This document shows positions 49,960 through 61,003 of a stretch of 64,000 nucleotides of DNA, in pieces. Position numbers and translations under genes: made by a program. The notes beneath the pieces are model-generated. The model saw only the letters and a program-made list of their open reading frames with translations. It was not told where the DNA came from and ran no database searches. The stretch is from positions 1,240,001-1,304,000 of the forward strand of contig NZ_CP049861.1 in the NCBI RefSeq assembly GCF_011299615.1. Direction: 5' to 3'. The stretch is from Erysipelothrix sp. HDW6C. GTDB lineage: Bacteria; Bacillota_I; Bacilli_A; Erysipelotrichales; Erysipelotrichaceae. Position 1 is the first letter of the stretch. Every line of letters begins with the position of its first letter.

Positions 49960-49965
49960 GAAAAA

Positions 49966-50187
49966 AATCGATGACCATGAATAGTATCTTGGATTAATGC
50001 AAAGAGAGTTGCTGGGTGGTGTGAAGCAATCATTACAAAAGAGAATGTCACATGGAAGATAATTATCTGAAACACGAAGTAAGATAGTTCGTAATCTGGC
50101 GTTAACAGAATCTAGAGGTTTCTCAATTGAGAAATAAACTAAGGTGGTACCACGATTAACATCGTCCTTTATGGATGATGTTTTTTT
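49966..50187 (+). promoter_or_regulatory. T-box leader, valine-specific
   Basis: A canonical T-box sequence AAGGTGGTACCACG lies at 50141-50154 and a terminator (CATCGTCC / GGATGATG, 50160-50187, with seven T) follows. The Stem I apical part reads GAGAGTTGCTGGGTGGTG near 50005. The specifier is probably GTC at 50047-50049 in GAATGTCAC, a valine codon followed by the usual purine. Uncharged tRNA-Val would stabilise the antiterminator and switch on the acetyltransferase gene and valS. Confidence 0.92.
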
Positions 50188-56198: not shown

Positions 56199-56210
56199 AA
56201 CCTAACTCCT

Positions 56211-56229
56211 TTCATACTTAAAGTATGAA
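56211..56229 (-). promoter_or_regulatory. Perfect palindrome abutting the mgtA Shine-Dalgarno sequence
   Basis: TTCATACTT-A-AAGTATGAA on the + strand is a perfect nine-base inverted repeat. It lies between the leader ORF stop and the mgtA SD, sharing its last bases with AAAGGAG. It may fold as a small hairpin that hinders the SD, or be a protein operator. Confidence 0.6.
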
Positions 56230-56234
56230 CGAAT

Positions 56235-56327
56235 TTAAGATACGATTGCCTCGGTTGTGGTCCCCAAGGGATCGTCATCAATTGATCGCTCACTATTCTC
56301 TGTAAAACTGCAACTTTGAACTTCCAT
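56235..56327 (-). CDS. Putative 30-residue leader peptide of mgtA
   Basis: Minus-strand ATG 56327 to TAA 56235. A strong SD GAGGTGG ends four bases before ATG. The peptide starts MEVQSCSFTENSER and then has SIDDDPLG, an Asp-Asp-Asp-Pro run at residues 17-20. It ends six bases before the palindrome at the mgtA SD. The ORF fills most of the short leader defined by the promoter at 56351-56379. Acidic and proline-rich leader peptides sense Mg2+ in enterobacteria (MgtL) by destabilising the ribosome. Function here is inference. Confidence 0.65.
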   Translation of the reverse strand: MEVQSCSFTENSERSIDDDPLGTTTEAIVS

Positions 56328-56350
56328 GGTACCACCTCGCTTTCTTATCG

Positions 56351-56379
56351 ATTATAACAAAGATATCGCAAAAGGGCAA
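56351..56379 (-). promoter_or_regulatory. Promoter of the mgtA leader
   Basis: Minus-strand TTGCCC (56374-56379), 17-base spacer and perfect TATAAT (56351-56356). The expected start, near 56344, is just before the leader peptide SD. Confidence 0.8.
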
Positions 56380-60335: not shown

Positions 60336-60815
60336 ATGTCAAACAAACACGAATTTCGTATTATGCGTCAGGGCTATGATCGCTTTGAAGTGGATCAAGT
60401 CGTTAATGATTTAGAGCATGAGAATAAAGTGATGCAAAAACAAATGCAAATCTTTAAGAAACAAGTCGAGACACTTCAAGAACAACGTGATATAATCAAG
60501 AAACGCTACCAGCAATTGGTAGGTGAAATAGCAGTTCGAGAACGAGCAGCTGAAGAAATGTCACGATTGGCACTTCGCGAAGCAAACTCAATCATTGATA
60601 ATGCCCGCTCAAACGCTGATATGATTGTCCGTGAAGCAATGTCGACTTCGCGTCAGGTTCTTGTAGAAATTGCACGAATCTCAAACGAGTCAAATGAGCT
60701 CCGAGATGAATTGAAATTTAGAATTAAAGATTTAGAGGAAGCAATCGACGGTCTAGAATTGCCGGATGCTCCAAATTTGAACTTATATAGCGATGACCAA
60801 GACACATCAAAATAG
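60336..60815 (+). CDS. divIVA: DivIVA-family cell-pole protein
   Basis: 159 residues from the second ATG (60336), better spaced from AAGGAG than ATG 60333. N-terminal lipid-binding motif FRIMRQGYDRFEVDQVVNDL followed by long coiled coils (about 30-145). It recruits division and growth proteins to curved membrane. It ends just before the isoleucine T-box. Confidence 0.95.
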   Translation: MSNKHEFRIMRQGYDRFEVDQVVNDLEHENKVMQKQMQIFKKQVETLQEQRDIIKKRYQQLVGEIAVRERAAEEMSRLALREANSIIDNARSNADMIVREAMSTSRQVLVEIARISNESNELRDELKFRIKDLEEAIDGLELPDAPNLNLYSDDQDTSK

Positions 60816-60819
60816 CAAT

Positions 60820-61003
60820 CCATTCTAGAGACTTCATGGTTGGTGAAAATGAAGAGGGACCTGTATTGATATCACTTGTGAGCTTGTTTTTGAATCGAGT
60901 AGAAAACACGTGGGCGGCGTTAACGCATTTAAGTGCACATACACTGTATGTGAATTAAGGTGGTACCACGTTTAAGACGTCCTTATTAGGACGTCTTTTT
61001 ATT
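60820..61003 (+). promoter_or_regulatory. T-box leader, isoleucine-specific
   Basis: T-box core AAGGTGGTACCACG at 60957-60970 and terminator AAGACGTCCT / AGGACGTCTT with T tail (60974-61003). The Stem I apical part is AGAGACTTCATGGTTGGTG near 60828. The specifier is probably ATC at 60871-60873 in GATATCAC, an isoleucine codon. No clear promoter is visible between divIVA and the leader, so transcription may come from sepF-divIVA or a weak internal start. Confidence 0.92.

Follow-up and report, generated by a model that had tools for sequence, protein, structure and literature searches.

Mg2+ sensing through the instability of ribosomes on acidic-proline nascent chains is already known from enterobacteria. 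Specifically, acidic residues within the first 30 amino acids make E. coli ribosomes pause or drop off, an effect through which MgtL raises mgtA at low Mg2+ (PMC11282234), its CC[C/U] codons being TrmD dependent (PMC6335274). Another leader, mgtQ, combines acidic codons with an RNA switch, in which helices 1:2 and 3:4 stand against helix 2:3, and L31 counteracts ribosome drop-off (PMC8092293). In Gram-positive bacteria, Mg2+ control of transporter genes is exerted by the M-box riboswitch.

The window analyzed here, a 64,000-nucleotide stretch of the genome of Erysipelothrix sp. HDW6C, carries a short open reading frame (ORF) before a gene for an Mg2+-importing ATPase, mgtA. In the literature searched, with subscription papers outside its coverage, no such leader is described for this lineage, and a preliminary description of this DNA had likewise known of none. 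The reading that we prefer, and to which we give somewhat better than an even chance, is that the ORF serves mgtA as a translated regulatory leader, sensing Mg2+ by ribosome destabilization at an Asp-Asp-Asp-Pro (DDDP) run.

Architecture of the mgtA leader region

The preliminary description had placed a 30-codon ORF with its own strong Shine-Dalgarno (SD) element between a good promoter and mgtA, with DDDP at residues 17 to 20, and each of these features could be read directly on the minus strand (Table 1). The promoter, which has an extended -10, matches the consensus at 10 of 12 positions and is the top-scoring candidate in a 1-kb scan. The range originally given for the element, 56235-56356, extends from the leader stop up to where the -10 box begins and leaves out the -35 box. 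The mRNA leader is short (about 130 nt), the gap between leader ORF and mgtA is 36 nt, and no intrinsic terminator was found on the minus strand between the two. Both L31 and TrmD are encoded in the window's own genome.

Table 1. Coordinates of the mgtA leader region within the window
Feature	Position	Strand	Details
Sigma-A type promoter	56351..56379	-	-35 TTGCCC 56379..56374; 17-nt spacer; extended TG; -10 TATAAT 56356..56351
Leader SD GAGGTGG	56332..56338	-	Read directly; kept across the genus
Leader ORF, 30 codons, MEVQSCSFTENSERSIDDDPLGTTTEAIVS	56235..56327	-	ATG 56327; stop TAA 56235
Acidic-Pro core Asp17-Asp18-Asp19-Pro20, codons GAT GAC GAT CCC	56268..56279	-	
Hairpin TTCATACTT-T-AAGTATGAA	56211..56229	-	Directly 5' of the mgtA SD; 5' arm starts right behind the leader stop
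mgtA SD AAGGAG	56206..56211	-	Read directly
mgtA, Mg2+-importing P-type (IIIB) ATPase, 862 aa	53610..56198	-	TIGR01524, 987 bits (cut-off 611)

Elsewhere in the window, ordinary T-box leaders precede valS and ileS (49962-50172 and 60784-60987). The T-box-like GGTGGTACC had no RF00230 match and was rejected as a T-box.

Conservation and selection within Erysipelothrix

Conservation of the ORF in relatives had been named beforehand as a refuting test, which both the ORF and its frame withstand. A leader ORF stands upstream of the orthologous mgtA (73-81% identity to the window gene within the genus) in 12 of 13 Erysipelothrix genomes (loci L001-L008, L010-L012, and L075; absent in L009), and 11 of the 12 loci that were located via mgtA and oriented have it in the same place. 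The L075 leader lies on a short contig, just before sequence starting ATGTCTAAT, in a genome without a detectable full mgtA match. The promoter, with TG before the -10, is kept in all eight lineages compared, its -10 ending 22-29 nt ahead of the leader start, and a transcript start upstream of the ORF is thus predicted; it is this promoter prediction alone that upholds the earlier requirement for a start neither inside nor downstream of the ORF. The leader SD has been kept together with the ORF, as has the start codon (TTG replaces ATG in L012), and leader stop and mgtA start are 23-45 nt apart throughout. By comparison, an SD-led ORF of this kind (ATG, 15-40 codons, strong SD, within 200 nt) occurs before 2 of 68 other genes with room upstream in the same genome, the window gene itself being the third positive among the 69 scored.

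Two loci depart from the general pattern in ways of their own. In L009 (genome G005), the promoter is retained and the leader ORF is lost, with a short GGGATT/AATCCC hairpin before mgtA in its place. In L011 (G006), the leader is intact and the mgtA orthologue falls into two overlapping frames near residue 650, through either a frameshift or a sequencing error.

Conservation at the codon level, which had been proposed as a check, is concentrated in the acidic-Pro run. Among the eight lineages, all 57 pairwise differences within the DDDP codons affect the third position, with 0 at the first and 0 at the second; 45 of these comparisons are synonymous and 12 exchange Asp for Glu, and the core always reads D-[DE]-D-P. 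The third-position changes require at least five separate events (p at most about 0.004, if positions are hit equally). This split by codon position indicates that the acidic-Pro core of the peptide is under protein-level selection. An ORF that overlies a conserved RNA or DNA element by chance, for which the likewise conserved CC[CT]TTGG behind the core and its ability to pair with the start region might speak, would explain neither that split nor the retention of an ORF with SD and start codon in 12 genomes, and we find it scarcely credible. On the sequence evidence, mgtA has a true leader ORF that is conserved in the genus.

Around the core, conservation is looser. Variation is free at residues 7-15, as it is in the C-terminal tail, while residues 1-6 and the Leu-Gly behind the core are kept in most lineages. 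These two conserved blocks (residues 1-6 and 17-22) could belong to a sequence-specific arrest peptide, in which MExQSC and DDDPLG would jointly arrest the ribosome in the exit tunnel upon some signal, and the spacing of the blocks is compatible with peptides that act in the tunnel. However, in L010 and L012 the first block is largely lost, and the Leu-Gly with it, while the acidic-Pro core stays, and we regard arrest of this type as very unlikely. Alternatively, the peptide could itself act on the MgtA protein as a small regulator, in the manner of MgtR or MgtS, as would befit a conserved ORF that adjoins mgtA; yet it is hydrophilic, has no membrane span, and leaves most of its residues unconserved, and the leaders of other genera share its position and not its sequence, all of which make this role highly improbable.

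A profile hidden Markov model of the leader, run against 273 family genomes, gave matches confined to the genus, the next having E values of 0.015 or worse, which we took as chance. Weak second matches in G003 and G007 were judged not to be leaders.

RNA folding of the Erysipelothrix leader

In most lineages of the genus, a hairpin reaches up to or into the mgtA SD, and in most the stretch behind DDDP is able to pair with the leader SD and start. The latter pairing finds weak support in shuffles (codon-order p 0.012, synonymous p 0.48), while complementarity of segments 2 and 3 reaches p of about 0.05 or less in seven of the eight genus leaders (mononucleotide shuffles). The consensus fold of the genus leaders (-0.85 kcal/mol) contains no covariation (0 compensatory pairs), the minimum free energies show no excess overall structure relative to synonymous and codon-order shuffles, and occlusion of the mgtA SD is not unusual relative to other genes of the genome.

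In a single-ribosome folding model, the mgtA SD opens with the ribosome at the end of the ORF in six of eight Erysipelothrix sequences; opening with the ribosome at DDDP was not seen in these models, and for the window's own sequence the ribosome had little effect on the mgtA SD. Combined with a simple drop-off sensor, opening at the ORF end would lower mgtA at low Mg2+ rather than raise it. A drop-off model is still workable provided that, with a new ribosome on the start, the freed Asp codons pair with sequence downstream, an arrangement that the modeled ensembles do not favor. The same folding results bear on a translational coupler without Mg2+ sensing, in which ribosomes finishing the leader would open the hairpin before the mgtA SD and promote initiation at mgtA, leader translation setting no more than a basal level. 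This would fit both the spacing of leader stop and mgtA start and the opening of the SD that is predicted in L003, L004, L005, L007, L010, and L012 once a ribosome reaches the last codons or the stop. But the opening is not seen in L001 or L002, and a coupler accounts neither for a conserved acidic-Pro core beside a free C-terminal end nor for the recurrence of early acidic-Pro motifs in the leaders of other genera. We consider a pure coupler unlikely.

Leaders before mgtA in other genera and in Mollicutes

Of the other 66 mgtA loci of the family, a set that excludes the Erysipelothrix orthologues of the window gene, 41 have an SD-led leader ORF by the same criterion, against the 2 of 68 control genes (Fisher p about 1e-14, where family loci that share a genus are related and all controls were drawn from ten 20-kb stretches and the window of one 2.36-Mb genome). 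The peptides differ by genus, for example MEAAEVPLSC, MEDPLSRKN, MEDSPRRLN, MDEGPKPEQ, and MSTGDPKP, with a further DYHSR group (e.g., MSHPDDYHSKR and MTHTDDYHSRN). Across 19 leader types, positions 2-9 hold 33 acidic residues against 19.8 expected (p 0.0004), and 10 types have acidic-Pro motifs against 3.9 expected (p 0.0006), these p values from residue shuffles being optimistic because the types and the motif were picked after inspection.

In Mollicutes of family f5 (L189-L201), an SD-led leader ORF precedes mgtA in 13 of 13 genomes; most of these leaders start MSIPS and one has EPEPGE. Read with code 4, the set includes MSPLSSFNDEVPI, MTNAITPEPEPGE, and MSIPS, and the Mycoplasma-type MSIPS leaders have an early Pro and no early acidic run. 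In three loci of other genera (L105, L147, and L154), the leaders MEDSPRRLN, MQSEGSK, and MEDSQSR are followed by intrinsic-terminator-like hairpins before mgtA, which suggests transcription attenuation of mgtA in those lineages.

The clearest candidate for an RNA switch lies in genus g3 (L106-L122 and relatives), where leaders follow the pattern MExxE(V/I/N)PLSC, the CCTTTATCG codons are invariant, and a four-segment RNA ends in the mgtA SD. In an alignment of eleven leaders, all have AAGCCGCC immediately ahead of the mgtA SD element GGAGGCTTTTTATATG, and GGCGGCT, or a close variant of it, toward the end of the leader. AAGCCGCC is able to pair with either GGCGGCT or the SD element; GGCGGCT, AAGCCGCC, and GGAGGCTT define mutually exclusive helices, and these are nearly invariant across the leaders. 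GGCGGCT occurs in differing frames (TCG GGC GGC TTT in L111, AGG CGG CTC in L106, and CTG GCG GCT in L115) and in L118 straddles or follows the leader stop, which argues that it is kept as an RNA element. Placing a ribosome on the acidic-Pro codons is predicted to leave the mgtA SD more open in L107, L109, L115, L116, and L118, while no clear opening was predicted in L106, L110, L111, L112, L121, and L122. As modeled, the g3 arrangement matches the published mgtQ-mgtB logic.

The proline codon deserves separate consideration. Pro20 is CCC in every Erysipelothrix locus read except one (CCT), although CCC and CCT make up 15% and 25% of the proline codons of the window's own genome and CCA is the commonest (45%), and all aligned g3 leaders have CCT. 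These codons could be sensors in their own right if, as proposed for Salmonella mgtL, CCC/CCT were slow when m1G37 tRNA (a product of the Mg2+-dependent TrmD) or Pro-tRNA ran short. Such a scheme would draw on the TrmD dependence of the MgtL codons (PMC6335274) and the presence of trmD in the genome, and would accommodate the Mycoplasma-type leaders, with their early Pro free of acidic residues. It would not explain why conservation is as strict for the three acidic residues as for the Pro, why the leader of the paralogue mgtA2 described below has DDDD and no Pro, or why some other leaders use CCG, and the preference for CCC could equally reflect RNA pairing. We consider Pro-codon sensing quite unlikely as the main mechanism.

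M-box elements and the paralogue mgtA2

Neither an M-box (RF00380) nor another relevant Rfam Mg2+ element was matched in the window leader, even at a relaxed threshold. Seven genomes of the genus have one M-box each, and where mapped (in all but G001) it lies at or near a paralogue, mgtA2: directly before it in five genomes and, in the window's own genome, about 0.8 kb upstream with a small gene between. Since the M-box, where mapped, is found in the genus only at or near the paralogue, the window mgtA plausibly needs another Mg2+ input. All six genus genomes without an M-box have a DDDP or DEDP leader. Beyond the genus, M-boxes precede mgtA in several family members.

The mgtA2 loci of other Erysipelothrix (L032, L033, L034, L036, and L037) follow the order M-box, terminator-like hairpin, separate short ORF, mgtA2. 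In G003 and G007, whose loci L036 and L037 are near-identical, the M-box before mgtA2 is followed by a leader ORF that contains DDDD, so that two Mg2+ inputs in series are possible there. The set thus points to mRNAs on which an M-box and then a leader peptide would read Mg2+ in turn.

A proposed mechanism and its reach

We infer Mg2+ as the signal, ribosome destabilization as the sensor, and translational control as the output. Under this Mg2+-sensing reading, the mgtA mRNA would start at the promoter at 56351-56379, and ribosomes would enter at the leader SD. At low cytosolic Mg2+, those synthesizing Asp-Asp-Asp-Pro near the N terminus would be destabilized and would drop off or pause, while with ample Mg2+ they would read through to the leader stop. 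Ribosome traffic on the leader would then choose among pairings of leader and mgtA ribosome-binding site, and hence set how often mgtA is translated. The conservation of the leader in the genus, together with similar short leaders in the family, suggests a ribosome-sensing gate on the pump, as in Salmonella.

More tentatively, and at slightly less than an even chance, we propose that Erysipelotrichaceae and Mollicutes hold a large, fast-diverging set of Mg2+-sensing mgtA leaders, independent of enterobacterial MgtL, that act mainly by translational attenuation and are sometimes stacked behind an M-box on the same mRNA. If so, the recurrence of such a motif in unrelated leaders ahead of mgtA in Gram-positives would suggest that ribosome instability is a general readout of Mg2+ that arose more than once. 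Further, the leaders offer natural sequences for testing which nascent chains destabilize ribosomes other than those of E. coli.

Comparison with MgtL and MgtQ

MgtL of Salmonella and E. coli (MEPDP; PMC11282234, PMC6335274) shares with the window leader a short SD-led ORF in the mgtA mRNA leader, acidic and Pro codons within the first 30 residues, and a CC[C/U] Pro codon. The two differ in the position of the acidic/Pro motif (residues 2-5 in MgtL, 17-20 here) and in its makeup, an EPDP alternation in the first five codons against DDDP with one Pro; the peptides have nothing in common by eye, and the window leader is short, sits in a Gram-positive host, and gives no evidence of a Rho site. 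MgtQ, an 8-codon ORF before mgtB in Salmonella (PMC8092293), likewise places acidic codons upstream of an Mg2+ ATPase gene, but has no sequence relation to the window leader, lies between genes inside an operon, and has Asp and Glu at positions 2 and 5. Its four-segment RNA, in which helix 3:4 holds the pump SD and 2:3 is the alternative, finds its closest match in the g3 leaders; in Erysipelothrix, covariation does not support such a switch. Membership of neither system is established, and the window leader probably works like MgtL or MgtQ.
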